Translations under genes and position numbers: made by a program
Assembly (NCBI RefSeq): GCF_963678975.1
Contig: NC_089277.1
Span: 20,181,440-20,245,439 of the forward strand
Origin: Dysidea avara
Lineage: Eukaryota > Porifera > Demospongiae > Dictyoceratida > Dysideidae
DNA: 64,000 bases
Direction: 5' to 3'
Shown: piece after piece, positions 12,601-41,686 of the stretch
Layout: each line of letters opens with the position of its first letter
Numbering within the stretch: position 1 is the first letter of the stretch
The notes under the pieces: generated by a model
Seen by the model: the letters and a program-made list of their open reading frames with translations, nothing else
What the model was told of the DNA's origin: nothing
The model's database searches: none

Positions 12601-12935
12601 TCTAATCCAAAACAGCCAGCTGTAAAAAAAGTGTGCGGCCCTCAAAAAGGCTATGGTGAAAAAAGATGTGAAATCCAAGGTGGCGGCCAAGAAATGGCTG
12701 TGATGGTAGGTTAATAGTAAAAATTTTAATAACAACAATTCAGGTGAATTTTTGTGCCGCTTGGTCTTGGCAAAAAATTCATCTAAATTGCCGTTATTAA
12801 AATTTTTACCATTAACCTACCATCACAGCCATTTCTTGGCCGCCACCTTGGATTTCTCATCTTTTTTCACCATAGCCTTTTTGAGGGCCGTGCACTTTTT
12901 TAACAGCTGGCTGTTTTGGATTAGATTTCACTTCT
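12601..12935. repeat. Terminal ~330-bp palindrome of copy B
   Basis: Left arm TCTAATCCAAAACAGCC...GATGGTAGGTTAATAGTAAA is mirrored by TTTACCATTAACC...GGCTGTTTTGGATTAGA, with a short asymmetric centre around TTGGTCTTGGCA. A transcript or single strand would fold into a ~150-bp stem. The same palindrome ends every composite copy. Confidence 0.9.
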
Positions 12936-13104
12936 TTTTGTATTTGTATACCCCAAAGCCGGCCTATCCGGCCATAGGCCGGCTTTGGGACTTTTGTAAC
13001 CTGTCTTTTTTTCTTTTCCACAGGAAGAAGAAAAGATGAAGCAGATGTACTTTAAATATTTCTGATTTTATCAGTAAATGTACAAATTATATATATAATA
13101 CATA

Positions 13105-15460
13105 TATTTATTACAGAACTCTCCATGGTGGTTTCTTTGTAACTGAACAATCTACAAAGTGACTTCTTCTTGCTGCTCTCTCTATAGGGTGAATTGTTTG
13201 TAGCTGAACAATATACAAGTAACTTCTTCTAGCTGAACTCTCTACAGGTGATTTGTTTGCAGCTGAACTCTCTACATGATGGTTTCTTTGTAGCTGAACT
13301 CTCCACAAGGTAACTTCTTCTAGCTGATTTTTCTACAGGGTGATTTGTTTGTAGCTGAACTCTCTACAAGGAAACTTCTTCTAGCTGATCTCTCTACAGG
13401 GAGATTTGTTTGTAGCTGAACTCTATACAGGTGATTTGTTTGCAGCTGAACTCTCTACATGATGGTTCTTTGTAGCTGAACTCTCTACAAGGTGACTTCT
13501 TCTAGCTGACCTTTCTACAGGGAGATTTGTTTGTAGCTGAACTCTCTACAGGTGATTTGTTTGCAGCTGAACTCTCTACATGATGGTTTCTTTGTAGCTG
13601 AACTCTCTACAAGTAACTGATGTCTCTACAAGGTCACTAGTTTGTAGCTGAACTCTCTACTTGGCGGTTTCTTTGTAAATGAACTCTCTACAGGGTGACT
13701 TCTTTTAGCTGATCTTTCTAGAGGGTGATTTGTTTGTAGCTGAACTCTCTACAGGTGATTTGTTTGCAGCTGAACTCTCTACATGATGGTTTCTTTCAGG
13801 CTGAACTCTCTACAAGGTAACTTCTTCTAGCTGATCTCTATACAGGGAGATTTGTTTGTAGCTGACCTCTCTACAGGGTGATTTTTTTTGTAGCTGAACT
13901 TTCTGCATACAAAGTGACTTGTTCTAGCTGGTCTCTCTACAGGATGACTTGTTTCTAGCTGATCTCTCTGCAGGGTGACTTGTTTCTAGCTGAACTCTAC
14001 CGGGTGATCTGTTCGTAGCTGAACTCTCTACAGGATGATTTGTTTACAGCTGAACTATCTACATGGTGGTTTCTTTGCAGCTGAATTCTCTACAAGGTGA
14101 CTTCTTCTAGCTGAACTCTCTATAGGGTGATCTTCTCGTAGCTGAACTCTCTGCAGGGTGATTCGTTTGCAGCTGAACTTTCTACATGATGGTTTGTTCA
14201 TAACTGAACACTCTACAAGGTAACCTCTTCTAGCTTATCTCTTTACAGGATAACTTGTTTCTAGCTGAACTCTCTACATGGTGATTTGTTGGTAGCTAAA
14301 CTCTCTACAATTCGATTTGTTTGCAGCTGAACTCTCTACATGGTGGTTTCTTTGTAGCTGAACTCTCTACAAGGTAGCTTCTTCTAGCTGATCTCTCTAC
14401 AGGATAACTTGTTTCTAGCTGAACTCTCTACAGGGTGATCCTTTCGTAGCTGAACTCTCTACAGGGTGATTTGTTTGCAGCTGAAGTCTCTACATGATGG
14501 TTTGTTTGCAGCTGAACTCTCTACAAGGTAACGTCTTCTAGTTGATTTCTTTACAGGGTGACTTGTTTCTAGCTGATCTCTCTACAGGGTGATTTGTTTG
14601 TAGCTGAACTCTGTACAGTTTGATTTGTTTGCAGTTGAACCTTCTACATGGTTGTTTCTTTGTAGCTGAACTCTCTACAAGGTAACTTTTTCTAGTTGAT
14701 CTCTCTACAGGATGACTTTTTTCTAGCTGAACTCTTGACAGGATGATCTGTTCATAGCTGAATTCTCTACATGGTAGTTTCTTTGTAGCTAAACTCTTTA
14801 CAAGGTGACTTCTTCTAGCTGATCTCTCTATAGGGTGATTTGTTTGTAGCTGAACTATCTGCAGGGTGATTTAAACTCTCTACAAGGTGATGTTTTCTAG
14901 TTGATCTCTCTACTCAGTCTGGATGACTTGTTTTTAGCTGAACTCTCTACAGTGTGATCTGTTAAGTTTCTACCTGATCTCTCTATACAGTTATATCTTG
15001 TTTGTATAGCTGAACTCTTTTACATGGTGGTTTTTTGATTGGTTGCTGAACTCTCTCTCCACGGTGACTTGTTTGTACTACAGAGTGACTTGTTTGTAGC
15101 TGAACTCTCTACAGAGTGACTTACCTGTAGCTGAACATTGCATAAAGTAACTTGTTTGTAGCTGATCTAGATGAACTCGCTACTAGGTAGCTTTTTTTGT
15201 AGCTGAACTCTTTACGCAGTGACTTGTTTGTAGCTGAATTCTCTACAGAGTGACTTGTTGTAGCTGAACTCTCTACAAGGTGACTTGTTTATAGTTGAAT
15301 TCATTTCAGTGTGACTTATAATGTTCTGAATCTCTACAGCAACATATTTGTAGCTGAACTCTCTACAGGATGACTTGCTTGTAGCTGAATTGTCTATAAG
15401 ATTAACTGTTTGTAGCTGAACTCCCTACAGAATAACTTGCAATGCTAAAGAAATTCTATA
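13105..15460 (+). repeat. 31-bp minisatellite array of copy B
   Basis: Units of about 31 bp read AGCTGAACTCTCTACA followed by GGTGATTTGTTTGT, GGTAACTTCTTCT or TGGTGGTTTCTTTGT variants. Units degenerate toward the right end (after about 14880). Confidence 0.9.
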
Positions 15461-17130
15461 ATGGAGTAAATTATAAACGTAGCTGAATGCTTTATTAGGG
15501 TGACTGTTCTATTAGAGTATCTCGATCTTGCATATGCTACACGTAGTTGGCTTTGGAATCATAACTCAGTAGTTTGTAATCCGATTCTTCTGTACTACTG
15601 CAAGGACTTTCTATGATAATTATTCCAGCTGCACACCGATTTTCAACTCACTGTTCCAAGCGGTTTGGCTGGTAGGCGTGAAAACCAATAGTTTTTTTTA
15701 TTCATAAAAGTCGATCGCGTAATTGTGACATAGGTTGGATTTTGTGTCATATCTCGATGGCCTTTAACTGGATTCCTTTCAAACCACAAAAAGGCACTCC
15801 TACGATAGTTACTCCATCTACATAGCAATTTTCAGCTCATTCCTTCAAGCGGTTTACCCTGTGGGCGTGACAGACCTTCGACCTTATTTTACGCAGATAA
15901 TCGGTAATAACTCCGTGAATGTTCATCGGATTCCTACCAAACTTGGTACTGAGATTCGCCTTAATGAGCCCTTTAAGTGTGCCAAATTTCAGCCCGATCC
16001 AAGCACGCATTCGTGTTTTATTGCGGATTTTGCAAAGTGTGCGAAAAGAAGAAGTAGAAGAAGAAAAAAACGAAGAAAATAACCCAAACTTTGGCCGCTC
16101 GTATCTCGGAAATGACTGGAGCGATTTTCTTCAAATTTGGTATGTGGACTCCCCTACCGCGCCGGCATTTCTGTAGCAACTTTGGTTTTAATAGGATAAG
16201 GAATCACGGAGCTACAAAGGTGTGAAAATCGCATTTACTTTCTTCCTGTAAATATACTCACGGTGTGGCGCGCCGGCTACTTGGGCCGCACGACACACTA
16301 CCGTGTGTCTTGATACATTGCTCACTTTTATAAAAGCATTTTTATAAGGTAGTATTTCTACACTAGTAATAGTGTACATAATGCTGTGACATATTATGGT
16401 GTATGTACACATCTTCCATTGAGCAATTATAAACTTGAATGTTTGTTATAGGAAACAGAAAAGCTGCCGCATGCCTTGATTGTCTGAATGTTGAACATAG
16501 AATATCACCCATAGAGAATCTCTCTGTCTTCAATACTATTATTCAAAGACCTTCACCAGCCACGTTACCAATCACTATAGATAGTCGTACACGGGAAGAC
16601 TACCTGTTGTGTGTATGTGATGCTCAACTTGATTGGATATTGAACAAAGAAAAATCAGAATTTGCGATTAGAGTGACTGACTGTCGTCATTTATTATCAT
16701 ACTTAAAAGAAGGATTTAAAGTAACAGGATATAGTAAATCTTTGAATAACATTACAAAGTTAAGAGAAAACTAAACATGAGGCTATTATGCTCCAAAAAT
16801 TGAGCATTATACTTTTGAGCAGTGCTCAAAAAATTTCCTATTAAGCTTTTGAGAATTGACCATTATTCCCAAAATTATGCCACCATAATTGGTTGATAAT
16901 GCCAGTTTATTGCTGTATCACACCATTTTCATTGATGCCTAAACTTCAAATAGTCTTGAATTCTTTAGCTGGTTACTGTATTAGAGTATTTCATTTCAAT
17001 GTGACTGCTTTATTAGAGTAAATAATATTCAGTGACTGTTCTATTAGAGTTTCTGACTGCTTTATTAGAGTACCTCGATCTTTTAAAATGAATCGAGCAA
17101 TCTGCAGATTTTCTTACTGTTAAAGCTTTA

Positions 17131-20100
17131 TCTAATCCAAAACAGCCAAGCTGTAAAAAAAAAAAGTGTGCGGCCCTCAAAAAGGCTATGGTGAAATAAG
17201 ATGTGAAATTCAAGGTGGCGGCCAAGAAATGGCTGTGATGGTAGGTTAATGGTAAAAATTTTAATAATGACAATTCAGGTGAATTTTGTGCCAATTGACC
17301 AAGCGGCACCAAAATTCACCTGAATTGTCATTATTAAAATTTTTACCATTAACCTACCATCACAGCCATTTCTTGGCCGCTACCTTGGATTTCACATCTT
17401 TTTTCACCATAGCCTTTTTGAGGGCCACACCCTTATTTTACAGCTTGGCTGTTTTGGATTAGATTTCACTTCTTTTTGTATTTGTATACCCCAAAGCCGG
17501 CCTGCTTTGGGACTTTTTTAACCTATCTTTTTTTCTTTACCACAGGAAGAAGAAAAGATGAAGCAGATGTACCTTAAATATTTCTGATTTTATCAGTAAA
17601 TGTACTAATTATATATATAATACATATATTTATTACAGAACTGTCCATGGTGGTTTCTTTGTAACTGAACACTCTTCAAGGTAACTTCTTCTACCTGATC
17701 TCTCTACAGGGTGATTTGTTTGTAGCTGAACTATCAACAAGGTAACTTCTTCTAGCTGTTATCTCTACAGGGTGATTTATTTGTAGCTGAATTCTGTACA
17801 GGTGATTTTTTTGCTGCTGGGTTCTTTACAGAATGGTTTCTTTGTAGCTGAACTCTCTACAAGGTAACTTCTTCTAACTGATCTCTCTACTGGGAGATTT
17901 GTTTGTTGCTGAACTCTCTACAGGTGATTTGTTTGCAGCTGAACTATCTAGATGATGGTTTCTTGATAGCTGAACTCTCTACAAGGTAATTTCTTCTAGC
18001 TGAACTCTCTACATGGTAGTTTCTTTGTAGCTGAACTCTCTACAAGATAACTTCTTCTAACTGATCTTTCTACAGGGCAATTTGTTTGTGGCAGAATTTT
18101 CTACAGGGAGATTTCTTTGCAGCTGAACTCTCTACATGGTGGTTTCTTTGTACTGTAGCTGAACTCTCTACAAGGTAATTTCTTCTAGCTGATCTCTCTA
18201 CAGGGTGATTTGTTTGTAGCTGAACTCTCTCCATGATGGTTTCTTTGTAGCTGAACTCTCTACAAGGTAACTTCTTCTAACTGAACTCTCTACAGGGAGA
18301 TTTGTTTGCAGCTGAACTCTCTTCATGATGGTTTCTTTGTAGCTGAACTCTCTACAAGGTAACTTCTTCTAGCTGAACTCCCTACATGGTGGTTTCTTTG
18401 TAGCTGAACTCTCTACAGGTGATTTGTTTGCAGCTGAACTCTCCACATGATGGTTTCTTTAAATTTGTAGCTGAACTCTCTACAAGGTAACTTCTTCTAG
18501 CTGATCTCTCTACAGGGTGATTTGTATGTAGCTGAACTATCTACAAGATAACTTCTTCTAGCTGATCTCTCTACAGGGTGATTTGTTTGTAGCTGAATTC
18601 TGTACAGGTGATTTGTTTGCAGCTGAGCTCTTTACAGAATGGTTTCTTTGTAGCTGAACTCTCTATAAGGTAGCTTCTTCTAGCTGATGTCTCCACAAGG
18701 TCACTAGTTTGTAGCTGAACTTTCTACATGGTGGTTTCTTTGTAACTGAACTCTCTACAAGGTAACTTCTTCTAGCTGATCTTTCTACAGGGTGATTTGT
18801 TTGTGGCTGAACTCTCTACAAGGAAACTTCTTCTAGCTGATCTTTCTACAGGGAGATTTGTTTGTAGCTGAATTCTGTACAGGTGATTTGTTTGCAGCTG
18901 AGCTCTTTACAGAATGGTTTCTTTGTAGCTGAACTCTCTATAAGGTAGCTTCTTCTAGCTGATGTCTCCACAAGGTCACTAGTTTGTAGCTGAACTTTCT
19001 ACATGGTGGTTTCTTTGTAACTGAACTCTCTACAAGGTAACTTCTTCTAGCTGATCTTTCTACAGGGTGATTTGTTTGTGGCTGAACTCTCTACAAGGAA
19101 ACTTCTTCTAGCTGATCTTTCTACAGGGAGATTGGTTTGTAGCTGAACTCTCTACAGGTGATTTGTTTGCAGCTGAACTCTCCACATGATGGTTTCTTTG
19201 TAGCTGAACTCTCTACAAGGTAAGTTCTTCTAGCTGATCTCTCTACAGGGAGATTTGTTTGTAGTGGAATTCTGTAAAGGTGATTTTTTTTGCAGCTGAG
19301 CTCTTTACAGAATGGTTTCTTTGTAGCTGAACTCTTTACAAGGTAACTTCTTCTAGCTGATGTCTCTACAGGGTCACTAGTTTGTAAACGAATTCTCTAC
19401 ATGGTGGTTTCTTTGTAACTGAACTCTCTACAAGGAAACTTCTCCTAGCTGATCTCTCTATAGGGAGATTTGTTTGTAGCTGAACTCTCTATAGGTGATT
19501 TGTTTGCAGCTGAATTCTCTACATGATGGTTTCTTTGTAGCTGAACTCTCTACAAGGTAACTTCTTCTAGCTGATCTCTCTACAGGGCGATTTGTTTGTA
19601 GCTGAACTCTCTACATTGTGGTTTCTTTGTAGCTGAACTCTACAAGGTGATTTCTTCTAGCTGAATTATCTCTTTCTATAGTTGCATGAATTCCCTACAA
19701 GGCAACTTCTTCTAGCTGATCTCTCTACAGGGTGAATTGTTTGTGGCTGATCTCTCTACAGGGTGACTTGTTTGTAGCTGATCTCTATACAGGTTACTTG
19801 TTTCTAGCTGATCTCTTGAATTCTCTTCATGTGACTGCTCTATTAGGATGACTGCTCTATTAGGATGACTGCTCTATTAGAGTATCTCGATCTCGCACTT
19901 GCTACACCAAGTTGGATTTCGTGTTATAACTCCGTGGCTTTAAGTCTGATTCTTCTACACCATTGAAGAGCCTTTCTAAGATGATAACTCCATCTGTACA
20001 GCAATTTTCAAAGCATTACCCCAAGCGGTTTATCTGGTAGGCGTGGCAAGTAGTCGTTTTTTATTAGCTAATCTCGATTGCGTAATTGTTACACATTGTT

Positions 20101-20682
20101 GGTTTTTTCGTTGTATCTTCCTGGTTTTTAGCTCGATTTCTTTCAAACCACAAAAGGTTTGAGGTTCAATAGTTAACCTATTCACCCACCGATTTTCAGC
20201 TTCTTCCCCTACGCGGTTTACCCTGTAGGCGTGACAACATATTGGTGTTATGTTTCGTGAATAATCGCTCATAACTCTTTGCCTGTTTATCGTATTCCAG
20301 CCAAAGTTGGTATAGAGATGCGCCTTTATACCCCCCTGCTGTGTGCCAAATTTCAAGGCGATCGGATATGGTGTTCGCGTTTTATAGCAGTTTTTGTAAG
20401 TGTGTGAAAAGAGGAAGAAAAATAAGAAGAAAAAAAAACGAAGAAACTAAGCCAATTTGTGAAGTCGCATATCTCGGGAACGCTTGAAGCGATTTCGCTC
20501 AAATTTGGAATGTGGAGTGCTGAGGTTGGAGAGAGTGTCCACAGCAAACATCGTCTTGTTTCATCAAGGCAGCACAGAGCTACGGAGGTGCGAAAATTGC
20601 GTTTTCTTTCTTCCTGTCAATATGCTCACGGGTGTTACGCGCCAGCTTCTTGGGCCGCACGACACACTACCGTGTGTCTTGA
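17131..20682 (+). mobile_element. Helitron-like composite element, copy C
   Basis: Starts TCTAATCC after A (17130) and ends GTGTCTTGA before T (20683). The empty site is visible in the paralogous hAT at about 41580-41600 (AAAGCTTTATAATCACC): the insertion lies exactly between A and T with nothing duplicated. Contents follow the usual order: palindrome 17131 to about 17466, spacer, minisatellite, modular block, hairpin. The modular block belongs to a second subtype shared with copy F (CTCGCACTTGCTACACC...) and differing from that of B, D1 and D2. Confidence 0.9.
17640..19830 (+). repeat. 31-bp minisatellite array of copy C
   Basis: Same unit family as in copy B. A block with ATAAGGTAGCTTCTTCTAGC and GTCTCCACAAGG occurs twice about 286 bp apart (near 18664 and 18950), so groups of units have been duplicated together. 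Confidence 0.9.
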
Positions 20683-20796
20683 TAATCACCTCAAAATGCT
20701 AGCATAATTCCTGATTCCCACACATACCTATTATGTCCGAAATTATTCCGGCATAATCGCCGCATCCATAGAGAAAACATGAAAGAAGAGTCATGA

Positions 20797-21135: not shown

Positions 21136-21223
<88 letters not shown>

Positions 21224-21895: not shown

Positions 21896-24006
21896 TAGGG
21901 TAGGGCATACACAGGAATTTTGAAAAGGAGTTTCCACTACAGCTAAGTGACTGTTATAATAGAGTAGTTTATTTTACCTGACTGCTTTATCAAGACACAC
22001 GATAGTGTGTCGTGCGGCCCAAGAATCCGGCGCGCCACGCCGTGAGTATATTAACAGGAAGAAGAAAATGCAATTTTCACACCTATGTAGCTCTGTGATC
22101 CCTTATCCGATTGGAACCAAATTTGCTAGAGACGTGCCTCCCAGTTAGGGGAGTCTACATACCAAATTTGAAGAAAATCGCTCCAGCCATTTCCGAGATA
22201 CGAGCGAACAAAATTTCGTTTTAATTTCTTCGTTTTTTTCTTCTTCATTTCGCACACTTCGCAAAATCCGCCATAAAACACGGATGCGTGCTCCAATCGG
22301 GCTGAAATTTGGCACACTTAAAGGGCTCATTAAGGCGGATCTCTGTACCAACTTTGGTAGGAATCCGATGAATATTCACGGAGTTATGACCGATTATTTG
22401 CGTAAAATAAGGTCGAAGGTCTGTCACACCTACAGGGTAAACCCCTTGGAGGAATCAGTTGAAAATTGATATGTAGATGGAGCAACCATCGTAGGAGTGC
22501 CTTTTTGTGGATTGAAAGGAATCGCATTAAAGACCATGGAGATATGACACAAAATCCAACCTGTATCAAAATTACGCGATCGATTTTTATGAATAAAAAA
22601 ACTATTAATTTTCGTGTCTACCAGGCAAACCGCTTAGAGCAACGAGCTGAAAATCAGTATGTAGCTGGAATAATCATCATGGAAAGTTCTTGCAGTAGCA
22701 GTAGTACAGAAGAATCGGATTACAAATCACTGAGTTATGATTTGAAAGGCAACTATGTGCAGCAAATGCGAGATCGAGATACTCTAATAGAACAGTCACC
22801 CTAATAAAGCATTCAGCTGCATGTATAATTTACTCAGTTATATTACATTGCAAGTTATTCTGTAGGGAATTCAGCTACAAACAAGTCAGCCTGTAGTCAA
22901 ATCAGCTAGAAGAAGGTATCTAATAGAGAGTTCAGCTACAAAGAAGCCATCATGTGGAGAGTTCAGCTGAAATAAATCACCCTGTAGAGAATTCAGCTAC
23001 AAACAAATTGCCCTGTAGAGAGATCAGCTAGAAGAAATTACCTTGTAGAGAGTTCAGTTACAAAGAAACAATCATGCAAAGAGTTTAGATGCAAACAAAT
23101 CACCCAGTACTCAGAAAGTTCCGCTATGAACAGATCACACTATAGAGAGTTCAGTTAGAAACAAGTCATCCTGTAGAGAGATCAGCTAGAAGAAGTCACA
23201 TTGTAGAGAGTTCAGTTACAAAGAAACAATCATGCAAAGAGTTTAGCTGCAAACAAATCACCCAGTAAAAAGTTCTGCTATGAACAGATCACACTGTAGA
23301 GAGTTCAGTTAGAAACAAGTCATCTTGTAGAGAGATCAGCTAGGAGAAGTTACCTTGTAGAGAATTCAGTTACAAAGAAACAATCATGCAAAGAGTTTAG
23401 CTGCAAACAAATCACCCAGTAAAAAGTTCCGCTATGAATAGATCACACTGTAGAGAGTTCAGCTAGAAACAAGTCATCCTGTAGATAGATCAGCTAGAAG
23501 AAGTCACTTTGTAGAGAGTTCAGCTACAAAGAAACCACCATGTAAGAGAGTTCAGCTTAGTGTTGTTTTAGTACAGCAAATTCATTTTAGTTTAGTTCTA
23601 GTTCTATTGCCCATAGTCCCCTAAAGTTTTAGTTAGTTTTAGTTCTAATACCCCAATTCCACCATAGTTTTAGTTAGTTTTAGTTCTAGTATCTCAATTC
23701 TACCATAGTTTTAGTTAGTATTAGTTCTGGTACCCCATATTTCTGTAATTTTAGTTAGTGTTAGTTTTAGTGTTAGATATCTTCACATAATATACTAACC
23801 TTGGTAGCATGCCCTAGACTTCCAGAAACTTTAGATTTGGTGTTTTGATAGATTTTTTCTCATTTTATATCGATGAGGCAAACTGTACCAAGAATTCAAT
23901 TCTTCAATTAATGCACAAAATTCACTGTTATCTACTAAATTCAGTGGTACATTGTTAGCACCTACAAAGGTTGTAAGATGAAATGTATAATAGTCTTATG
24001 TTTATT

Positions 24007-24343
24007 CACTGTGAAAAAGGTGGGATATAAGATGGTATTTCCAGTGGCTTATTGAATACAAATAAGCCTTAATATAAACCCTGTATTATACTCATGTTAT
24101 ACTTTAGTATAATGCATACTATACTATTACATATATGGTTTCAGTTTATTTACCACAATACCAAAAATAGCTTATATCAAATATAATGCCCACACTATAC
24201 CATCACATATATGGTTTCAGTATGTTTAACACATTAACTAAAGCCTTACATGTGATTGTTAGTATACTACAGGTTATATCAAGCTTTTTTGTATTCAATA
24301 AGCCACTGGATATACCATCTTATATCCCACTTTTTTCATAGTG
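24007..24343. mobile_element. MITE nested in the hAT element
   Basis: Inverted ends of about 57 bp: left CACTGTGAAAAAGGTGGGAT, right complement CACTATGAAAAAAGTGGGAT, both running on through ATAAGATGGTAT and CCAGTGGCTTATTGAATACA. ATT flanks both sides, suggesting a 3-bp duplication. The inside is AT-rich and non-coding. Confidence 0.75.
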
Positions 24344-24685
24344 ATTGCTATTAGGGTTGCACAATTTAGATCCTAAACTATGTATTGGCAAGGAGGACTG
24401 TTTCAACTGGCTAGAAGAAACTCTCCTTTCTTTTTCCTTTGTCTTTTCAATTTCAGCTGCTTCAAAATATTTATAAGTGTCAGTATGGCATGTCTTCAAA
24501 TGCTTCTTCATGTTTATAGAATATTGTCCTTTAAATTCTTTTATACTACAAATCAAACCATCAGTACTTTTCACAGTACACACACTTTTGTCCTTGATCT
24601 TATCGTACCTGAAGTAGTTCCACACTCCACTTGACTTAGGCCTTCCACCTGGTTCAGCACAACTTTCACTTGCCATTGTGCGCAA
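24320..24685 (-). CDS. BED-type zinc finger fragment of a hAT transposase
   Basis: The 121-residue frame starts MRTMASESCAEPGGRPKSSG and reads SGVWNYFRYDK, then two Cys and KKHLKTCH. The order aromatic-rich start, C..C, H(x4)H fits the DNA-binding BED finger at the N-terminus of hAT transposases and ZBED proteins. Nothing of the RNase-H-like catalytic domain follows. The last residues (HYEKSGI) are read from the nested MITE at 24007-24343, so that insertion provides the present stop. It could at most act as a DNA-binding fragment. Confidence 0.6.
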   Translation of the reverse strand: MRTMASESCAEPGGRPKSSGVWNYFRYDKIKDKSVCTVKSTDGLICSIKEFKGQYSINMKKHLKTCHTDTYKYFEAAEIEKTKEKERRVSSSQLKQSSLPIHSLGSKLCNPNSNHYEKSGI

Positions 24686-27600
24686 ATGAACAAAAGCTCT
24701 AATAGAATTGTGCTTAAATAACCTAAATCAGCAGAATTAATGCTGAATAACAATGTTTTATGGTAACATTTCCAGGAATCACCATCTTCAAAGAAAAGTG
24801 TTAAGTGGTTATAGTGTACAATACCCTTTTATGTAGGATTGCTTGAGAAAACTTTTAGTTAGTTCTAGTTCTTGTCCTAAAAATTTTAAAAATTTTGGTT
24901 TAGTTCTAGTTTTTGAACCAAAATTTGAATGAATTTTAGTTTAGTTTTAGTTTTAGAACTAAAATAGACCACAATTTTAGTTTAGTTGTAGTGTACTAGA
25001 ACTAGAATTAAATTGCTGTACTAAAACTAGATTTAGTTCTAGTTCCTTAGAACTAAAACAACACTAGTTCAGCTGCAAACAAATCACCTGTAGAGAGTTC
25101 AGTTAGGAACAAGTCACCCTGTACAGAGATCGGCTAGGAACAAGTCATCCTGTAGAGAGTTCAGCTAGAAGAAGTTACATTGTAGAGAGTTCAGCTACAA
25201 ACAAATCACCCTGTAGATAGTTCAGCTAGAAACAAGTCACCCTGTAGAGAGATCAGCTAGAAACAAGTCACCCGTAGAGAGTTCAGCTAGAAGAAGTTAC
25301 ATTGTAGAAAGTTCAGCTACAAAGAAACTACCATGTAGAGAGTTCAGCAGCAAACAAATCACCCTGTAGAGAATTCAGCTACAAACAAATCACCCTGTAG
25401 AAAGATCAGCTAGAAGAAGTTACCTTGTAGAGAGTTCAGCTAGAAACAAATCACCCTATAGAGGGTTCAGCTACAAACAAGTCACCCTGTAGAGAGTTCA
25501 GCTAGAAGAAGTTACATTGTAGAGAGTTCAGCTACAAGAAACTACCATGTATAGAGTTCAGCAGCAAACAAATTGCCCTGTAGAGAATTCAGCTACAGAC
25601 AAATCACCTTGTAGAAAGATCAGCTAGAAGAAGTTACCTTGTAGAGAGTTCAGCTACAAACAAATCACCCTGTAGATAGTTCAGCTAGAAACAAGTCACC
25701 CTGTAGAGAGATCAGCTAGAAACAAGTCACCCGTAGAGAGTTCAGCTAGAAGAAGTTACATTGTAGAAAGTTCAGCTACAAAGAAACTACCATGTAGAGA
25801 GTTCAGCAGCAAACAAATCACCCTGTAGAGAATTCAGCTACAAACAAATCACCCTGTAGAAAGATCAGCTAGAAGAAGTTACCTTGTAGAGAGTTCAGCT
25901 AGAAACAAATCACCCTATAGAGGGTTCAGCTACAAACAAGTCACCCTGTAGAGAGTTCAGCTAGAAGAAGTTACATTGTAGAGAGTTCAGCTACAAGAAA
26001 CTACCATGTATAGAGTTCAGCAGCAAACAAATTGCCCTGTAGAGAATTCAGCTACAGACAAATCACCTTGTAGAAAGATCAGCTAGAAGAAGTTACCTTG
26101 TAGAGAGTTCAGCTACAAACAAATCACCCTGTAGAGAGTTCAGCTAGAAACAAGTCACCCTGTAGAGAGATCAGCTAGAAACAAGTCACCCTGTAGAGAG
26201 TTCAGCTAGAAGAAGTTACATTGTAGAGAGTTCAGCTACAAAGAAACTACCATGTACAGAGTTCAGCTGCAAACAAATTGCCCTGTAGAGAATTCAGCTA
26301 CAAACAAATCACCCTGTAGAAAGATCAGCTAGAAGAAGTTACCTTGTAGAGAGTTCAGCTACAAACAAATCACCCTGTAGAGAGTTCAGTTAGAAACAAG
26401 TCACCCTGTAGAGAGTTCAGCTAGAAGAAATTACGTTGTAGAGAGTTCAGCTACAAAGAAACTACCATGTAGAGAATTCAGCTGCAAACAAATTGCCCTG
26501 TAGAGACAAACAAATCATCCTGTAGAAAGATCAGCTAGAAGAAGTTACCTTGTAGAGAGTTCAGCTACAAACAAATCACCCTGTAGAGGGTTCAACTACA
26601 AACAAGTCACCCTGTAGAGAGTTCAGCTAGAAGCAGTTACATTGTAGAGAGTTCAGCTACAAAGAAACTACCATGTAGAGAGTTCAGCTGCAAACAAATT
26701 GCCCTGTAGAGAATTCAGCTACAAACAAATCACCCTGTAGAAAGATCAGCTAGAAGAAGTTACCTTGTAGAGAATTCAGCTACAAACAAATCACCCTGTA
26801 GAGAGTTCAGCTAGAAACAAGTTACACTGTAGAGAGATCAGCTAGAAACAAATCACCCTGTAGAGAGTTCAGCTAGAAGAAGTCACATTGTAGAGAGTTC
26901 AGCTACAAAGAAACTACCATGTAGAGAGTTCAGCTGCAAACAAATTGCCTTGTAGAGAATTCAGCTACAAACAAATCACCCTGTAGAAAGATCAGCTAGA
27001 AGAAGTTACCTTGTAGAGAGTTCAGCTACAAACAAATCACCATGTAGAGAGTTCAGCTAGAAACAAGTCACCCTGTAGAGAGATCAGCTAGAAACAAGCC
27101 ACCTGTAGAGAGTTCAGCTAGAAGAAGTTACATTGTAGAGAGTTCAGCAGTTTAGCTGCAAACAAATCGCCCTGTAGAGAATTCAGCTACAAACAAATCA
27201 CCCTGTAGAAAGATCAGCTAGAAGAAGTTACCTTGTAGAGAGTTCAGCTACAAACAAACCACCCTGTAGAGAGTTCAGCTACAAACAAGTCATCCGGTAG
27301 AGAGATCAGCTAGAAGGGTCACCTTGCAGAGAGGTCAGCTACAAAGAAATCACCCTGCTTCATCTTTTCTTCTTCCTGTAGTAAAGAAAAAATTACAGGT
27401 TAAAAAGCCCTAAAGCCGGCCATAGGCTGGCTTTGGGGTATACAAATACAAAAAGAAGTGAAATCTAATCCAAAACAGCCAAGCTGTAAAAAAAAGTGCG
27501 GCCCTGAGAAAGGCTATGGTGAAAAAAGATGTGAAATCCAAGGTGGCGGCCAAGAAATGGCTGTGATGGTAGGTTAATGGTAAAAATTTTAATAACAACA

Positions 27601-27851
27601 ATTCAGGTGAATTTGGTGCCGCTTGGTCTTGGCACAAAATTCCCCTGAATTGTCGTTATTAAAATTTTTACCATTAACCTACCATCACAGCCATTTCTTG
27701 GCCGCCACCTTGGATTTCACATCTTTTTTCACCATAGCCTTTCTCAGGGCCGCACTCTTTTTTAACAGCTTGGCTGTTTTGGATTAGATTATAATATCTC
27801 AATTTTTTCATCAAAATCATAATATTCAGAATAATGCTACAAGTGTTGGTA

Positions 27852-30800
27852 TCAAGACACACGGTAGTGTGTCGTGCGGCCCAAGAAGCTGGCGCGCCAG
27901 ACAGTGAGTATATTTACAGGAAGATAGTAAATGCGATTTTCACACCTTTGTAGCTCCGTGATTCCTTATCCGATTGAAACCAAAGTTGCTATAGAAGTGC
28001 CGGCTAGGTAGGGGAGTCCACATTCCAAATTTGAAGAAAATCGCTCCAGCCATTTCCGAGATACGAGCGGCCAAAGTTAGGGTTTTTTTTCTTCGTTTTT
28101 TTTCTTCTCCTTTTTCTTCTTTTCGCACACTTTGCAAAATCCGCCATAAAACACGAATGCGTGCTCCAATCGGGCTGAAAGTTTGCACACGTAAAGGGCT
28201 CATTAAGGCGAATCTCAGTACCAAGTTTGGAAGGAATCCGATGAACATTCACGGAGTTATGACCGATTATTTGCGTAAATTAGGTCGAAGGTCTGTCACG
28301 CCCACAGGGTAAACCGCTTGAAGGAACGAGCTGCAAATTGCTATGTAGATGGAGTAACTATCGTAGGAGTGCCTTTTTGTGGTTTGAAAGGAATCCAGTT
28401 AAAGACCATCGAGATATGACACAAAACCCAACCTGTGTCAAAATTACGCGATCGATTTTTATGAATATAAAAACAATTAGTTTTCACTCCTACCAGGCAA
28501 ACCGCTTAGATCAGTGAGCTGAAAATCGGTGTGTAGCTGGAATAATTATCATAGAAAGTCCTTGCAGTAGTACAGAAGAATCGAATTACAAACCACTCAG
28601 TTATGATTCCAAAGCCAACTACGTGTAGCATATGCAAGATCGAGATACTCTAATAGAACAGTCACCCTAATAGAGCATTCAGCTACGTTTATAATTTACT
28701 TCATTATAGAATTATATTACATTGCAAGTTATTCTGTAGGGAATTCAGCTACAAACAAGTCACCCTGTAGTCAGATCAGCTAGAAGAAGGTACCTAATAG
28801 AGAGTTCAGCTACAAAGAAACCACCATGTAGGGAGTTCAGCTGCAAACAAATCACCCTGTAGAGAATTCAGCTACAAACAAATTGCCCTACAGAGAGATC
28901 AGCTAGAAGAAGTTACCTTGTAGAGAGTTCAGTTGCAAAGAAACCATCGTGTAGAGAGTTCAGCTGCAAACAAATCTCCCACTAGAAAGTTCCACTATGA
29001 ACAGATCACCCTGTAGAGAGTTCAGTTAGAATCAAGTCATCCTGTAGAGAGATCAGCTAGAAGAAGTCACCTTGTAGAGAGTTCAGCTACAAAGAATTGC
29101 ACTGTAGAGAGTTCAGCTACAAACAAATCACCCTGTAGAGAGATCAGCTAGAAACAAATCACCCTGTAGAGAGATCAGCTACAAACAAATCACCTTATAG
29201 AGAGTTCAGCTACAAACAAATTATACCCTGTAGAGAGATCAGCTACAAAAAAATCACCCTGTAGAGAGATCAGCTAGAAACAAATCAAGCTGCAGAGAGA
29301 TCAGCTACAAACAAATCACCTTATAGAGATTCAGCTACAAACAAATTACCCTGTAGAGAGATCGGTTACAAACAAATCACCCTGTAGATAGTTCAGCTAC
29401 AAACAAATCAACCTGCAGAGAGTTCAGCTACAAACAAATCACCCTGTAGAGAGAACAGCTAGTAGCTATGTAGAAACTAGACACAATGTCAGAGGTTCAG
29501 CTACAAGCAAATCACCCTTTTTGTGGGTTCAGCTACAAACAAATCAACCTGCAGTGAGATCACCTACAAAAAAGCACCTTGTACAGACTTCAACAAATTA
29601 CTCTGTAGAGAAATCAGCTAGAAGAATTCACCTTGTAGAGAGTTCAGCAACAAAGAAACCACCACGTAGAGAGTTCAACTGCAAAAAAATCAGCCTGTAG
29701 AAAATTCAGTTACAAACAAATCGCCCAGTAGAAAGATCAGCTAGAAGAAGTTACCTTGTAGAGAGTTCAGCTACAAAGAAACCATTCTGTAAAGAGTTCA
29801 GCTGCAAACAAATTACCTGTACAGAATTCAGCTACAAACAAATCACCATGTAGAGAGATCAGCTAGAAGAAGTTACCTTGTAGACAGTTCAGCTACAAAC
29901 AATTCACCCTGTACAGAGATCACTTAGAAGAAGTTTCCTTGTAGAGAGTTCAGCTACAAACAAAATTAATCACCCTGTAGAAAGATCAACTAGAATAATT
30001 CACCTTGTAGAGATTTCAGCTACAAAGAAACCAGAGTTCAGCTGCAAACAAGTCACCCTGTAGAAAATTCAGCTACAAGCAAATCACCCAATAGAAAGAT
30101 TAGCTAGAAGAAGTTACCTTGTAGAGAGTTCAGCTACAAAGAAACCATTCTGTAAAGAGCTCAGCTGCAAACAAATCACCTGCACAGAATTCAGCTACAA
30201 ACAAATCACCCTATAGAGAGATCAGCTAGAAGAAGTTACCTTGTAGACAGTTCAGCTACAAACAATTCAGCCTGTACAGAGATCAGTTAGAAGAAGTTTC
30301 CTTGTAGAAAGTTCAGCTACAAAAAATCACCCTGTAGAAAGATCTGCTAGAAGAATTCACATTGTAGAGATTTCAGCTACAACGAAACCACCATGTAGAG
30401 AGTTCAGCTGCAAACAAGTCACCTTGTAGAAAATTCAGCTACAAACAAATCACCCTGTAGAAAGATCAGCTAGAAGAATTCACCTTGTAGAGAGTTCAGC
30501 TACAAAGAAATCATCCTGTAAAGAGCTCAGCTGCAAACAAATCACCTGTACAGAATTCAGCTACAAACAAATCACTCTGTAGAGAGATCAGCTAGAAGAA
30601 GTTACCTTGTAGATAGTTCAGCTACAGACAAATTACCCTGTAGAGAGATCAGCTAGAAGAAGAGTTACCTTGTAGATAGTTCTGCTGCAAACAATTGACC
30701 CTGTAGAGAGATCAGCTAAGAAGTCACCTTGTAGAGTGTTACGTTACAAAGAAACCACCATACAGAGAGTTTTGTAATAAATATATGTATTATATATATA

Positions 30801-31284
30801 ATTTGTACATTTACTGATAAATTCAGAAATATTTAAAGTATTTAACACCTGCTTCATCTTTCTTCTTTCCGTGGTAAAGAAAAAAGATAGGTTAAAAAAG
30901 CCCCAAAGCCGGCCATAGGCCGGTTTTGGGGTATACAAATGCAAAAAGAAGTGAAATCTAATCCAAAACAGTCAAACTGTAAAAAAAAGTGTGCGGCCCT
31001 CAAAAAGGCTATGGTGAAAAAAGATGTGAAATCCAAGGTGGCGGCCAAGAAATGGCTGTGATGGTAGGTTAATGGTGAAAATTTTAATAACGACAATTCA
31101 GGTGAATTTTGTGCCAAGACCAAGCGGCACCAAATTCACCTGAATTGTCGTTATTAGAATTTTTACCATTAACCTACCATCACAGCCATTTCTTGGCCGC
31201 CATCTTGGATTTCACATCTTTTTTCACCATAGCCTTTTTGAGGGCCGCACACTTTTTTTTACAGTTTGGCTGTTTTGGATTAGA
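27852..31284 (-). mobile_element. Helitron-like composite element, copy D2
   Basis: Reverse orientation, from TCAAGACACACGGTAG (27852) to the palindrome end GGATTAGA (31284). The host reads AAGTGTTGGTA^TCATATTAGAAAC. The unfilled relative near 44580 (complement) reads AAGTGTTGCTATCATGCTAG, so insertion was at A^T without duplication. Modular block of the same subtype as B and D1. Confidence 0.88.
28735..30765 (-). repeat. 31-bp minisatellite array of copy D2
   Basis: Same unit family. In the middle part (about 29090-29600) most units are of the CAAACAAATCACC type, whereas the outer parts alternate between types. Confidence 0.9.
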
Positions 31285-32715: not shown

Positions 32716-32973
<258 letters not shown>

Positions 32974-33572
32974 GACATACTGAAGGCACTTTAGGGCTTG
33001 GTTATACCTGCCAAGGTGTCAGAGTGGTCTTGTGAAGCTGATATTTGGGTAAACACCCTAATCTTTATGATGCCTAATAATACTACTGTACTGTATGATG
33101 ATTTGTAATACTCTACCATATGATAATTACAAATCCTATCATTACCATAAATATATAGTTACAGGTGTATATCAGGTTTATGCACACTAAACACAAGGAT
33201 TAGCACAGAACAAAGCCCTCTTTCATTGTTTTCTTTGTGTTGTTTTATTTAATATCTATTCTTAACTGGCTACAATAATATTGGTAGTACCGTTTAAGTA
33301 GAGATCACCCAGAAATTTTCGTGTGCCGTCCAAAATTCTGCCTTTAAAAATCACCCTAGAGAAATTTTATGTGACACAAACCACCTTTATGGAATAGTAC
33401 ACTAGTCCACATAACAGCATTAAATATAACAAAACACTTACAGGTGGCCAGATATAGAATTATAAAAAATCGCCAAAGCTCAAATTTTAGCCTCACTGCC
33501 TCACTCACAGACCACAGTTGCAAGGCCAGAGCAGTGCATAGCCACCATTTTATGGCATAATAACAAACTCAC

Positions 33573-36500: not shown

Positions 36501-39500
36501 CTCAAAAGCATAATTGGCTATTTTCAAAGCATAATTGGCACAAGCCTATTCTCACTAGTGCCACACTAAGGATCAGTGTTGAACTTAGTTGTGACTGATG
36601 ACACACACAGGTGGAGTATACATAGGTCCTCCCTATTAACCAAATTTACAAGAAATCAGTGATATATACTCATGAGATCTTTCATATGGCTTGTATGGAA
36701 AGTATGTTTAAGCATATTCATGGATTCCCTAAAAATAATTATTTCAGGCTGCAGTTTTTAGTGCATATAACCAGTTGAGAATCTTGAGATTAAAAGTGTG
36801 TGTCTGATTTACAATACTGTACAAACTTATACCTACTGATATAGTATTTCACAAGATAACAACCTTAAAAGTTATATTTAAAGTAACTACATTTTCTTAC
36901 TCACTTGACAAAATTCTAGATTTGTCTCATTTGATACATCACACAGCTGAAAATATCCATCATCTGTGACAGCAAATATTCTGGACTAAAATAATAATGG
37001 CAGTAATGATCACGAAACTTAATACATAATTATTGCTTATTATGTGTAATCCATTGTAATACGGTGCATATAAATTGTAGTAAATATTAGCTGGATACAC
37101 ACATACAGCATGATAACAGATGACATACTGTAAATGGCATTATAGCTAATGTTGTATGAATACCAGGTATTGTACATACTCATCAATGTAGTGAGCTCTA
37201 AGTGCCTTGCTCATTCAGCTTCTCTCAGATTCTCTTCAATATACTGTGATAACATGGTGTATAACAATTAAGTTTAATATAAATTTTGTTCCCTTAAGAT
37301 CTACAGTTGCAATATTTTACATGGTGATTTCCCATAGTTATTCTCAACTATGTATTGTACACATGTAATGTACTGTAACTATTTATCTTTTAGCTATAAC
37401 TAGTAAGTACACAGGCAGTTGCAACTTGTGGGATTTCCACGCTACAGGATTTGGTGCAAATTGAAGGCTAATCAAATCATAGAGATCTCATTACTTAGCA
37501 TAGGCGATGGAGACGGGGGAACCAGGGGGGCCATGGCCCCCACTTTTATGGGACACTGTTTGAAAGAAAAGATCGAGATACTCTAATAGAACAGTCAGGA
37601 TCTGGATACTCTAATAGAGCAGCCACAGTATTCAGAGAAGCAGTGCAGCAAGTAACTTAGCTACACATGTGTATAGTTATAATATAATCAAGATATAATC
37701 AGTGGAGAGCAGCTATTGTCAGCAAGCTGTGACCTTTTCTTTTTTTTCTTTGGCCTTCAACTTACAGCTGGCCTGGCCCCTTTACTCTTTGGCCTGCTCC
37801 ACCGCCCCTGTTACTTAGCACTACGGGAACTCTGAGGCTCATTGTTTAGCTATTTGTAACTAATGTACAAAAGTTGGACAGCTTTGATCTTTAAAAGTAG
37901 CTAACATGATTGTACAAAACAATGACTATAAACAACAGATACTTACAAGTTACAAAATTCACTTACTTGGCTGCATGCATAGCTGTATATTCCTTGATAG
38001 AATTCATTAATACATTTATTGAAGCCCTATATAATCACTATGCAAACCAAAACATGGCTAATTTCTCTTAACCTTGTCAATACTATCTAATCTTGTTCTT
38101 AATGCGTCTACACAGTATTTGCCTCCTGAGCGTGGAATACACCCATACATATAAGCAGCTTCCAATTAGGCATGAGGCTATTATGCTCAAAAAGTCACCT
38201 ATTATGCTTTTGAGAATTGCCCATTATTCCCAAAATTATGCTACCATAATTGGCTAATAATGCCAGTTTTATTGCTGTATCAGACCATTTTCATTGAAGT
38301 TTTAAGCCTCAAATAGTCTTGAATCTTTAGCTGGTTGTTGTATTAGAGTATTTAATTTCAATGTGACTGCTTTATTAGAGTAAATAATATCTAATCCAAA
38401 ACAGCCAAACTGTAAAAAAAGGGTGCGGCCCTCAGAAAGGCTATGGTGAAAAAAGATGTGAAATCCAAGGTGGCGGCCAAGAAATGGCTGTGATGGTAGG
38501 TTAATGGTAAAAATTTTAATAATGACAATTCAGGTAAATTTTGTGCCGCTTGGTCTTGGCACAAAATTCACCTGAATTGTCGTTATTAAAATTTTTACCA
38601 TTAACCTACCATCACAGCCATTTCTTGGCCGCCACCTTGGATTTCACATCTTTTTTCACCATAGCCTTTCTCAGGGCCGCACACTTTTTTTACAGCTTGG
38701 CTGTTTTGGATTAGATTTCATTTCTTTTTGTATTTGTATACCCCAAAGCCGGCCTATGGCCAGCTTTGGGACTTTTTTAACCTATGTTTTTTTTCTTCAC
38801 TACAGGAAGAAGAAAAGATGAAGTAGATGTACTTTAAATATTTTATCAGTAAATGTACAAATTATGTATATAATACATATGTGACCGGATTTGCGAAAAG
38901 GGGCCTTCCACACACATCCAATTTGCCAACTTTGACAATTGATAACTTCAGATTGGAAAGAGCTATTGCCTTGAAATTTGGGCAGTGGTGATTTCTTTGC
39001 AGCTGAACTCTCTACAAGGTAATTTCTTCTAGCTGATCTCTCTACAGGGAGATTTGTTTGTAGCTGAACTATCTACAAGGTAACTTCTTCTAGCTGATCT
39101 CTCTACAGGGTGGTTTCTTTGTAGCTGAACTCTCTAAAAGGTAACTTCTTCTAGCTGATCTCTCTACAGGGAGGTCTGTTTGTAGCTGAACTATCTACAA
39201 GGTAACTTCTTCTAACTGATCTTTCTACAGGGCAATTTGTTTGTGGCAGAATTTTCTACAGGGTGATTTCTTTGCAGCTGAACTCTCTACATGGTGGTTT
39301 CTTTGTAACTGAACTCTCTACAAAGTAATTTCTTCTAGCTGATCTCTCTACAGGGTGATTTGTTTGTAGCTGAATTCTGTACAGCTGATTTGTTTGCAGC
39401 TGAGCTCTTTACAGAATGGTTTCTTTGTAGCTGAACTCTCTACGTATACAAGGTAACTTTTCTAGCTGATGTCTCTACAAGGTGACTAGTTTGTAACTGA

Positions 39501-41686
39501 ACTCTCTACATGGTGGTTTCTTTGTAACTGAACTTTCTACAAGGTTGACTTCTTCTAGCTGATCTAACACAGGGTTATTTGTTTGTAGCTGAACTCTCTA
39601 CAAGGTAACTTCTTCTAGCTGATCTCTCTAAATGGTGGTTTCTTTGTAACTGAACTTTCTAAAGGTGACTTCTTCTAGCTGATCTAACACAGGGTTATTT
39701 GTTTGTAGCTGAACTCTCTACAAGGTAACTTCTTCTAGCTGATCTCTCTACATGATGAATTGTTTGTAGCTGAATTCTGTATAGGTGATTTGTTTGCAGC
39801 TGAGCTCTTTAAATAATGATTTCTTTGTAGCTGAACTCTCTCAAGGTAACTTCTTCTAGCTGATGTCTTTACAGGGTCACTAGTTTGTAGCTGAATTCTC
39901 TACATGGTGGTTTCTTTGTAACTGAACTCTCTACAAGGTAACTTTTTCTAGCTCATCTTTCTACAGGGTGATTTATTTGTAGCTGAATTCTGTACAGGTG
40001 ATTTGTTTGCAGCTGAGCTCTTTAAAGAATGGTTTCTTTGTAGCTGAACTCTCTACAAGGTAACTTCTTCTAGCTGATGTCTCTACAAGGTCACTAGTTT
40101 GTAGTTGAGCTCTCTACATGGTAATTTCTTTGTAACTGAACTCTCTACAAGGTGACCTCTTCTAGCTGATCTTTCTATAGGGTGATTTATTTGCAGCTGA
40201 GCTCTTTACAGAATGGTTTCTATGTAGCTGAACTCTTTACAAGGTAACTTCTTCTAGCTGATGTCTCTACAGGGTCACTAGTTTGTAAATGAATTCTCTA
40301 CATGGTGGTTTCTTTGCAACTGAACTCTCTACAAGGTAACTTCTTCTAGCTGATCTCTCTACAGGGAGATTTGTTTGTAGCTGAACTCTCTACTGGTGAT
40401 TTGTTTGAAGCTGAACTCTCTAAATGATGGTTTCTTTGTAGCTGAACTCTTAGACTACAAGGTGATTTCTTCTAGCTGAATTATCTCTTTCTATAGTTGC
40501 ATGAATTCTCTACAAGGTAACTTCTTCTAGCTGATCTCTCTACAGGGTGAATTGTTTGTGGCTGATCTCTCTACAGGGTGACTTGTTTGTAGCTGATCTC
40601 TATACAGGTTACTTGTTTCTAGCTGATCTCTTGAATTCTCTTCAGGTGACTGCTCTATTAGGATGACTGCTCTATTAGAGTATCTCGATCTCGCACTTGC
40701 TACACCAAGTTGGATTTCGTGTTATAACTCCGTGGCTTTAAGTCTGATTCTTCTACACCATTGAAGAGCCTTTCTAAGATGATAACTCCATCTGTACAGC
40801 GATTTTCAAAGCATTACCCCAAGCGGTTTATCTGGTAGGCGTGGTAAGCAGTCGTTTTTTATTAGCTAATCTCGATTGCGTAATTGTTACACACTGTTGG
40901 TTTTTTCGCTGTATCTTCCTGGTTTTTAGCTCGATTTCTTTCAAACCACAAAACGTTTGAGGTTCAATAGTTAACCTATTCACCCACCGATTTTCAGCTT
41001 CTTCCCATACGCGGTTTACCCTGTAGGCGTGACAACATATTGGTGTTATTTTTCGTGAATAATCGCTCATAAATCTTTGCCTGTTTATCGTATCCTAGCC
41101 AAAGTTGGCACAGAGATGCGCCTTTATACCCCCTGCTGTGTGCCAAATTTCAAGGCGATCGGATATGGCGTTCGCGTTTTATAGCAGTTTTTGTAAGTGC
41201 GCGAAAAGAGGAAGAAAAATAAGAAAAAGAAGAAGAAAAAAAACGAAGAAACTAAGCCAATTTTTGAAGTCGCATATCTCGGGAACGCTTGAAGCGATTT
41301 CACTCAAATTTGGAATGTGGAGTGCTGAAGGTAGAGGGAGTGTCCACAGCAAAAATCGTCTTGTTTCAGCAAGGCAGCACAGAGCTACGGAGGTGCGAAA
41401 ATTGCGTTTTCTTTCTTCCTGTCAATATACTCACGGGTGTTACGCGCCGGCTTTTTGGGCCGCACGACACACTACCGTGTGTCTTGATTCAGTGACTGTT
41501 CTATTAGAGTTTCTAACTGCTCTATTAGAGTATCTCGATCTTTTTAACGGAATCGTGCAATCTGCAGATTTTCCTACTATTAAAGCTTTATAATCACCTC
41601 ATAATGCTAGCATAATTCCTGATTCCCACGCATACCTATTATGCCTGAAATTATAATTGCCACATCCCTACTCCCAATTGAGAAGC
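33573..41686 (-). CDS. Unrecognised multi-exon gene, one exon split by a hAT element
   Basis: Exon-like blocks on the minus strand with consensus borders: 41671-41686 plus 38073-38158 (one exon, split), 37967-38026 (donor GTAAGT), about 37165-37240, 36905-36985 (donor GTGAGT), 35459-35555 (donor GTAAGT), 34882-34953, and 33573 to about 33700 (donor GTGAGT). Joined across the hAT, the first reads ASQLGAAYMYGCIPRSGGKY. Later exons give DTIQLWCLFAPQNVD and, after a one-base shift, an AT-hook-like RGRRPSLVGTPKG. There is a TGA inside the 37.2-kb block, and frame slips at 35.5 and 33.6 kb. It may be a decaying gene or a gene with sequence errors. Linking all blocks into one gene is inference. Confidence 0.45.
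33888..34137. mobile_element. MITE of the GTGACCGG family (TSD AATT)
   Basis: Left GTGACCGAGCCTGCGAAAAC, right complement GTGACCGGGCCTGCGAAAAT. AATT flanks both sides (33884-33887, 34138-34141). The interior closely matches 1571-1818. Confidence 0.85.
34376..34622. mobile_element. ~245-bp palindromic element with tRNA A-box-like arms
   Basis: Almost the whole segment is an inverted repeat. Both arms contain TTACAGCATAGCTCAGTGGG followed by AAG(G)TCCCTACTT(T)GGCA, and GCAATAAAAAGTAGTGAAA outside it. TAGCTCAGTGGG matches the pol III A-box consensus of tRNAs. It could be a fold-back MITE or two SINE-like units facing each other. Confidence 0.65.
36144..36548. mobile_element. hAT-type MITE (TSD TTCTCCCT/TTCTCACT)
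   Basis: Right end complement TAGGCTTGTGCCAATTATGC; left end TAGGCATAACTTTTAGCATA is more diverged. Flanking 8-mers differ at one base (36136-36143, 36549-36556). Carries the CTCTAATAGAG-type motif near 36370 and 36430. Confidence 0.7.
37499..37810. mobile_element. Second hAT-type MITE family (TSD TTACTTAG)
   Basis: Ends CATAGGCGATGGAG and (complement) CAGGGGCGGTGGAG. TTACTTAG is duplicated exactly at 37491-37498 and 37811-37818. It contains two CTCTAATAGA(G/A) motifs (about 37573 and 37605), although its termini are unlike those of the TAGGC family. Confidence 0.8.
38390..41487 (+). mobile_element. Helitron-like composite element, copy F
   Basis: Starts TCTAATCC after A (38389) and ends GTGTCTTGA before T (41488). 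The paralogous hAT at 17 kb keeps the empty site TAAATAATATTCAGTGACTG (about 17017-17036), again A^T with no duplication. Palindrome 38390 to about 38717. A fragment of the GTGACCGG family lies at about 38882-38990 between spacer and satellite. Confidence 0.9.
38990..40640 (+). repeat. 31-bp minisatellite array of copy F
   Basis: Same unit family as copy C, with many units in the same order, including the TTATCTCTTTCTATAGTTGC irregular unit near the right end of both arrays. Confidence 0.9.

Follow-up and report, generated by a model that had tools for sequence, protein, structure and literature searches.

The HINE and DINE-1 elements, which sections of PMC4067079 and PMC7492417 treat as non-autonomous Helentrons, are described there as non-coding elements of high copy number that carry a central tandem array, satellite-like in the oyster element Cg_HINE, and that insert without duplicating their target. 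Their 5' end, according to the same sections, bears a subterminal repeat and a complementary inverted repeat, and their 3' end a subterminal repeat followed by a palindrome. Canonical Helitrons, represented by Helitron1, start with TC, insert at A^T without duplication and have a hairpin near the 3' end. We describe here a family of elements from the sponge Dysidea avara that shares these traits of both groups, and is a full member of neither. The elements were recognised in a window of 64 kilobases (kb), namely contig NC_089277.1, positions 20,181,440 to 20,245,439 of the forward strand, which is the whole stretch of DNA analysed, and were followed through 550.8 megabases (Mb) of the genome in 108 contigs. 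Judging from its anatomy, the view that the element works like a rolling-circle transposon is well supported.

The window holds five complete copies (A, F, D1, D2 and C) and one truncated copy (E) of a single element. Read from 5' to 3', the element consists of a palindrome, a spacer, a minisatellite with a unit of 31 base pairs (bp), a block of about 850 bp and a terminal hairpin; the lengths are 3,713 bp for A, 3,552 for F, 3,098 for C, 5,799 for D1 and 3,433 for D2. The copies, the parts of copy C to which we refer below, and four empty sites in paralogous sequence are the following.

12601..16313, plus strand: copy A, complete, with palindrome 12601-12925, 31-bp array 13119-15430 and A-type block 15441-16313.
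17131..20682, plus strand: copy F, complete, with palindrome 17131-17463, array 17649-19816 and C-type block; empty site at 41590^41591.
21990..27788, minus strand: copy D1, complete, 5.8 kb, with palindrome 27464-27788, array in parts 25066-27357 and 22851-23557, and A-type block; empty site at 44641^44642.
27852..31284, minus strand: copy D2, complete, with palindrome 30957-31284, array 28734-30771 and A-type block; empty site at 44580^44581.
38390..41487, plus strand: copy C, complete, with palindrome 38390-38715, spacer 38716-38985, array 38987-40631 and C-type block 40641-41487; empty site at 17027^17028.
1..910, minus strand: copy E, cut by the window start, with palindrome 583-910, spacer and array.
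38390..38715, plus strand: 5' palindrome of copy C, arms of about 155 bp flanking an asymmetric centre.
38423..38431, plus strand: 5' subterminal inverted repeat GTGCGGCCC of copy C, with its partner GGGCCGCAC at 41450-41458.
41466..41487, plus strand: 3' terminal hairpin of copy C, GACACAC-TACC-GTGTGTC, and TTGA end.
17027^17028: empty site paralogous to copy C, 113/120 aligned positions identical.
41590^41591: empty site paralogous to copy F, 109/120 identical.
44580^44581: empty site paralogous to copy D2, 104/116 identical.
44641^44642: empty site paralogous to copy D1, 105/117 identical.

The palindrome measures 325 to 333 bp in all five complete copies, the first 111 to 165 bp of the spacer are alike among copies, and Tandem Repeats Finder (TRF) detects an array of the 31-bp type in all six. 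The block comes in two types that are 71-74% identical: A-type in A, D1 and D2, and C-type in C and F. An earlier reading of the window, made from its letters alone and called here the sequence-only reading, had proposed six copies with a common anatomy and a palindrome of about 330 bp as their 5' end. The long palindrome stands in all of them, as do the spacer and the array. Block and hairpin are established for the five complete copies, to which the end-to-end check extends; those of E lie beyond the window start. Copies D1 and D2 are separated by 63 bp. The interior of D1 holds, between the two parts of the array, extra sequence (23558-25065) that includes repeats of 41 bp and, at 24320-24685 on the minus strand, a short frame for which Pfam gives no match. 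A motif like TGACTGCTCTATTAGAGTATCTCGATCT is found at 40641-40691, inside the 3' block, and in the surrounding host sequence at 41488-41541, 44622-44685 and 37567-37626: the block and some of the targets thus share a repeat.

The element begins with TCTAATCC and ends with GTGTGTCTTGA. Each of the four empty sites can be aligned with the flanks of its copy once these are joined, and the alignments place the element between A and T, without duplication or loss of a single base. For the 5' end, we collected 46 palindromes: the six of the window, and 40 of the genome, which are the first 40 of the 100 listed among 2,617 matches to the inner junction, all on contig C1. Since every sampled copy holds the exact inner junction, strongly altered copies are under-sampled. 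The outer end is readable in 44 of the 46 (L055 and L057 were dropped), a number that includes the near-duplicates L064/L065, L073/L075/L077 and L062/L063. An A directly precedes the element in 44/44 of these copies, whose left flank is AT-rich, and TC is the start of the six window copies and of 35 of the 38 readable genome copies, the start being changed in L056, L062 and L063.

For the 3' end, the hairpin ACACACTACCGTGTGT has 7,175 exact matches in the genome (3,529 + 3,646) and the reversed pattern has a single one, which excludes chance. The sequence continues with CTTGA after 6,723 of these hairpins, and then with T in 6,625 cases (98.5%) and with another base in 98; the remaining 452 hairpins continue otherwise. 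The 3' end is precise across thousands of copies, and the 5' end is precise in the sample. Insertion between A and T without duplication, as the sequence-only reading had it, is what the empty sites and both neighbouring bases display, and the TC start, the TTGA end and the hairpin are confirmed, genome-wide for the hairpin and the T after CTTGA, in the sample for TC. That reading had named longer duplications and variable ends as the observations that would speak against it: none of the four empty sites has a duplication of more than 2 bp, and the 3' end is fixed.

As single-stranded DNA, the palindrome of copy C folds at -184 kcal/mol, compared with a mean of -37.3 for shuffled sequences, none of 100 being as low. 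At the 3' end, folding gives a terminal hairpin of 7 bp (z -2.63, a value reached by 3 of 200 shuffles) that stops 4 nucleotides before the end of the element. A 9-bp subterminal inverted repeat is present in the five complete copies, as GTGCGGCCC on the 5' side and GGGCCGCAC on the 3' side. The former starts 33-38 nucleotides from the 5' end and has its complement in the inner arm (5/5), and the latter starts 38 nucleotides before the 3' end, with the hairpin coming next (5/5); of 1000 dinucleotide shuffles made of copy C's ends, 12 yield an inverted repeat of at least 9 bp.

Taken together, these sequences make it probable that the element belongs to the Helitron superfamily, as a non-autonomous rolling-circle transposon that an HUH Rep-helicase mobilises in trans. 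By analogy with Helitrons, Rep would nick A^TC at the 5' end, a strand would be peeled off from the nick until halted by the 3' terminus, formed of the 7-bp hairpin and TTGA, and that strand would then be inserted at A^T, nothing being duplicated. As for the 5' end, it would be an enlarged version of the subterminal repeat and inverted repeat of HINE/DINE-1. Both the protein and the circular or single-stranded step are elements that we infer.

Some comparisons with the known systems weigh against this view. The target is A^T here, and a T-rich T^T in HINE/DINE-1 and Helentrons; the 3' end reads TTGA, or CTTG if shifted by one base, where canonical Helitrons have CTRR; and the hairpin stands 4 nucleotides from that end, instead of 10-12. 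To these must be added that a 2-bp duplication of AT, or a shift by one base, is formally equivalent to insertion without duplication at all four aligned empty sites, just as the sequence-only reading had said of the duplication. Those sites would consequently fit a cut-and-paste (DDE) or other transposon that duplicates an AT target and has the ends CTAATCC...CTTG, and some DNA transposons do duplicate 2 bp. But the extreme ends, CTAATCC and CAAGACAC, do not form an inverted repeat, the subterminal 9 bp being the longest match, and a short 3' hairpin is opposed to a long 5' palindrome, an asymmetry that is, to our knowledge, unusual for DDE elements: we regard such a transposon as improbable. 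Hairpins near both ends, combined with insertion without duplication, would also fit a relative of IS200/IS605 or IS607, moved by an HUH TnpA or a serine recombinase and unrelated to Helitrons. However, A^T insertion in a eukaryote together with a TC start is the signature of Helitrons, and this kinship is very hard to believe.

Other differences bear on the place of the element within the superfamily. Its ends are fixed, unlike the variable terminal T runs of HINE/DINE-1; the arms of its 5' inverted repeat are about 155 bp long, compared with 7-12 bp; and its 5' subterminal repeat is found 33-38 nucleotides in, compared with 2-4 in mite HINEs. Canonical Helitrons, for their part, differ by the long 5' palindrome and the subterminal inverted repeats that the element has. 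The sequence-only reading had found two points odd, TTGA in place of CTRR and the long 5' palindrome; both hold, and the CTRR of canonical Helitrons is not found. A CTTG end is reported for Helraiser with hairpin or end deletions, and for maize Helitrons, in a section of PMC4778049. The proto-Helentron of Phytophthora has similarly mixed features, with a Helentron-like protein and A^T insertion, but it ends in CTAG and encodes proteins, and the part of PMC4067079 that deals with it mentions no giant palindrome. In Fusarium, the FoHeli/Helitron2 elements have hairpins at both termini (FoHeli1 and 2) and asymmetric terminal inverted repeats; according to the corresponding part of PMC5148889, they differ by their ends, by their target, TNAT before T or A, and by a 5' hairpin of only about 15 nucleotides. 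Among the open-licence papers listed for Helitrons or Helentrons in connection with sponges, minisatellites, palindromes, foldback, hairpins and inverted repeats, none has a title or opening of its abstract that describes such a family; novelty is provisional, given this scope, which does not include Repbase.

Genes for Rep abound in the genome, which suits this assignment: the domain PF14214 has 150 matches (150 of the 230 candidates scored), many of them in long open frames. We read 30 Rep loci over 1.5 kb on each side, and nine group representatives further. The sequence-only reading had called for a Rep/helicase between the same termini: an autonomous copy with these termini did not turn up among the Rep groups examined, most of the 150 matches not being read to their ends, and this too counts against the assignment. 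The label "Helitron/Helentron-derived" rests on anatomy and not on a common protein. The proposal of an undescribed family derived from Helitrons or Helentrons is thus partly supported, by the anatomy and, provisionally, by the literature.

Three groups of canonical-looking Helitrons, H1, H2 and H3, carry the RGLPH signature and, by eye, a 3' hairpin and CTAG before T; again by eye, H1 and H3 start with TC, and the hairpin before CTAG is CCTGC...GCAGG in H1 and H2. With open frames of up to 1531-1613 amino acids and stretches that are 97-99% identical between copies, H3 being made of two clusters about 70% alike (L009-L038, L039, L040, L081-L084), they look recently active. They were set aside as autonomous versions of the element on account of 3' ends that, by eye, have a different hairpin and CTAG. 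They could nevertheless move the element in trans despite these differences: apparent activity, a TC start in H1 and H3, and a T after the end in all three speak for it, and Helraiser is able to use other 3' ends, such as CTTG beside T (a section of PMC4778049). But the terminal sequence in common goes no further than TCTA, the hairpins of H1 and H2 differ from that of the element, and its uniform 3' end of 21 nucleotides in thousands of copies would point to dedicated recognition, which makes mobilisation by these Helitrons unlikely.

A script that looked for a hairpin with CTRR or TTGA before T reported nothing for H1-H3; it is thus insensitive, and its negatives elsewhere weigh little. Among the 30 Rep loci, L023 was the only one with parts of the element, and was considered as a Rep joined to an A-type block; by eye, its Rep part ends in a CTAG of its own, and the block comes after. 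Another candidate was H8 (L088/L091, C1:25854000-25868400), which combines Rep, PIF1, OTU and a 2A-like peptide in 2078 amino acids, the frame beginning near what we take to be a 2A peptide of the GDVESNPGP type. It sits in a C-type copy, whose palindrome, spacer, array and initial 210 bp of C block precede it; in about 17 kb after the frame, neither the remainder of the C block nor the hairpin was detected. Five more copies of the H8 type were compared. Two, both on contig C15, share the 5' end of H8 itself, with no element parts in about 1 kb before it; another (L093, L100; C2:42854553-42858700) has a 31-bp array in the opposite orientation upstream, with neither palindrome nor C block in the stretch; two have neither that 5' end nor the array; and none of the five has the ends of the element. 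We judge that H8, although placed right after the 5' parts of the element, is nested there, since it has its own 5' end elsewhere and no element ends.

The groups H4-H7 and H9 have no matching end in the stretches read. Downstream of H5 lies a reverse-strand frame that we presume to resemble RPA. OTU domains are found by Pfam in H7 and H8, and an OTU-like motif in H3. H5 and H6, without a matching end in the flank stretches read, carry RGSPHxH, given as a mark of Helentrons in a section of PMC4067079. H5 (L086, L121, L122) has two near-identical copies, on contigs C5 and C9 (99.9-100% over 1.2-1.3 kb).

We now turn to the 5' palindrome, whose arms and centre were compared in 32 of the 46 copies. 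Copies that failed the criterion for the start (L042, L050, L055, L057, L064, L065, L070, L073, L075 and L077) were left aside, as were L045 and L079, which are short, E, whose inner end was mis-measured, and L063, a near-duplicate of L062. The arms evolve partially in concert. The mean distance from a left arm to its own right arm is 0.036, and 0.048 to those of other copies, with none of 20,000 permutations as low. Changes that define subfamilies occur in both arms: in 14 of 14 variant copies at column 52, in 13 of 16 at column 38, and in 10 of 11-12 at column 49. Overall, 49 non-consensus substitutions are common to both arms, when 22.4 are expected (0 of 2000 permutations as high). Three observations reduce the force of this result. 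If the three subfamily columns are removed, 12 substitutions shared by the two arms remain for 5.6 expected, and 2 of 2000 stratified permutations are as high, several strata consisting of one copy; only 6 of the 32 left arms have their own right arm as the nearest; and four of the 32 (A, L052, L061 and L062) have it among the farthest, the arms differing more than most random pairs. With a concert that is only partial, correction must be occasional.

The centre of the palindrome, about 20 bp long, exists in two orientations. Exact genome matches to its short-loop variant number 907 for one orientation and 698 for its opposite; the sampled copies divide 18 to 14, and each of the loop variants is present in either orientation (7 and 8 for the short, 5 and 2 for the long). 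Orientation clusters by lineage, as judged against column 52 (Fisher p 0.0009), and requires 5 changes on the tree of copies (bootstrap 4-6), compared with 10.7 for shuffled labels. The tree is weak: of its 29 inner branches a single one has good support, and at that level of support just 1 change of orientation is required. The centre has thus turned round, probably on several occasions, the number being uncertain. A flip at each transposition is rejected, because orientation follows lineage. Both the concerted arms and the two orientations are new in this analysis.

The terminal hairpins of parvoviruses are also long palindromes whose centre occurs in two orientations, flip and flop. Here, in contrast, we see an integrated element with a long palindrome at just one end, and an orientation that is mostly inherited. 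It is conceivable, though doubtful, that this 5' end works in the parvovirus manner, the displaced strand folding in some cycles into a hairpin of about 155 bp that would be copied and resolved, equalising the arms and inverting the centre; in that case, the corrected arms and the flip/flop would be traces left by a hairpin intermediate of transposition. For the palindrome only, and compatibly with any reading of the whole element, we lean slightly towards ordinary gene conversion, recombination or template switching during host replication, unrelated to transposition. Long inverted repeats are known substrates of all three, and the tracking of lineage by orientation fits. The subfamily changes present in both arms of most members are a point on the other side, but they imply that correction also took place in copies that later transposed, which does not separate the two explanations.

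Within the rolling-circle scheme, the palindrome would probably have arisen when the 5' end was duplicated in inverted orientation, as could happen by head-to-head self-insertion. Able to form a hairpin, it would be occasionally corrected, and inverted, through template switching or gene conversion between its arms. With correction and inversion happening now and then, the arms would be concerted and the centre able to turn round. This origin, and this cause of arm correction, are what we infer from the patterns above. At L070, two elements stand head-to-head, 5 bp separating their 5' ends, which offers a possible model of the palindrome's origin.

Rearrangements are also found at the other end, where the sequence immediately upstream of CTTGAT is altered in 62 cases. 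We examined 15 of them, with 18 hairpins, picked for their oddity and thus yielding no frequency. Four of the 18 hairpins, one each in L111, L117, L118 and L119, lie in palindromes that extend 18-28 nucleotides from the loop and reach the flank, compared with 10 nucleotides in three ordinary ends of the window; these inverted duplications of host flank are marks of foldback or template switching. In L106, L107 and L113, 21-24 nucleotides of the 3' end are joined to sequence unrelated to the blocks of the element: such ends may have been captured or have arisen de novo. L106 has, at its far end, a 45-bp match to the recurring host motif, and the sequence upstream in L113 reads like what we take to be a gypsy-type pol frame. 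A 3' transduction at L112 was rejected, the structure being a local tandem duplication of the hairpin and 16 bp.

Elsewhere in the window, a nearly perfect array of the tetranucleotide GCAG, of 65 copies with 99% matches, occupies 32715-32974. Two frames, 57856-59195 on the plus strand and 60345-60923 on the minus strand, resemble what we assume to be a Harbinger-type transposase and its Myb/MADF-type partner; the part 57856-58668 of the Harbinger-like frame has no Pfam match at the default cut-off.

The family, with its thousands of members, joins the target and start of a Helitron to an interior like that of HINE elements, and thus bears on the relationship between Helitrons and Helentrons. 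Its 5' palindrome may make the 5'-end step of rolling-circle transposition readable, since arm correction and the orientation of the centre would tell if a hairpin is copied. For the genome of the sponge, the element is a route by which a 31-bp minisatellite is dispersed.

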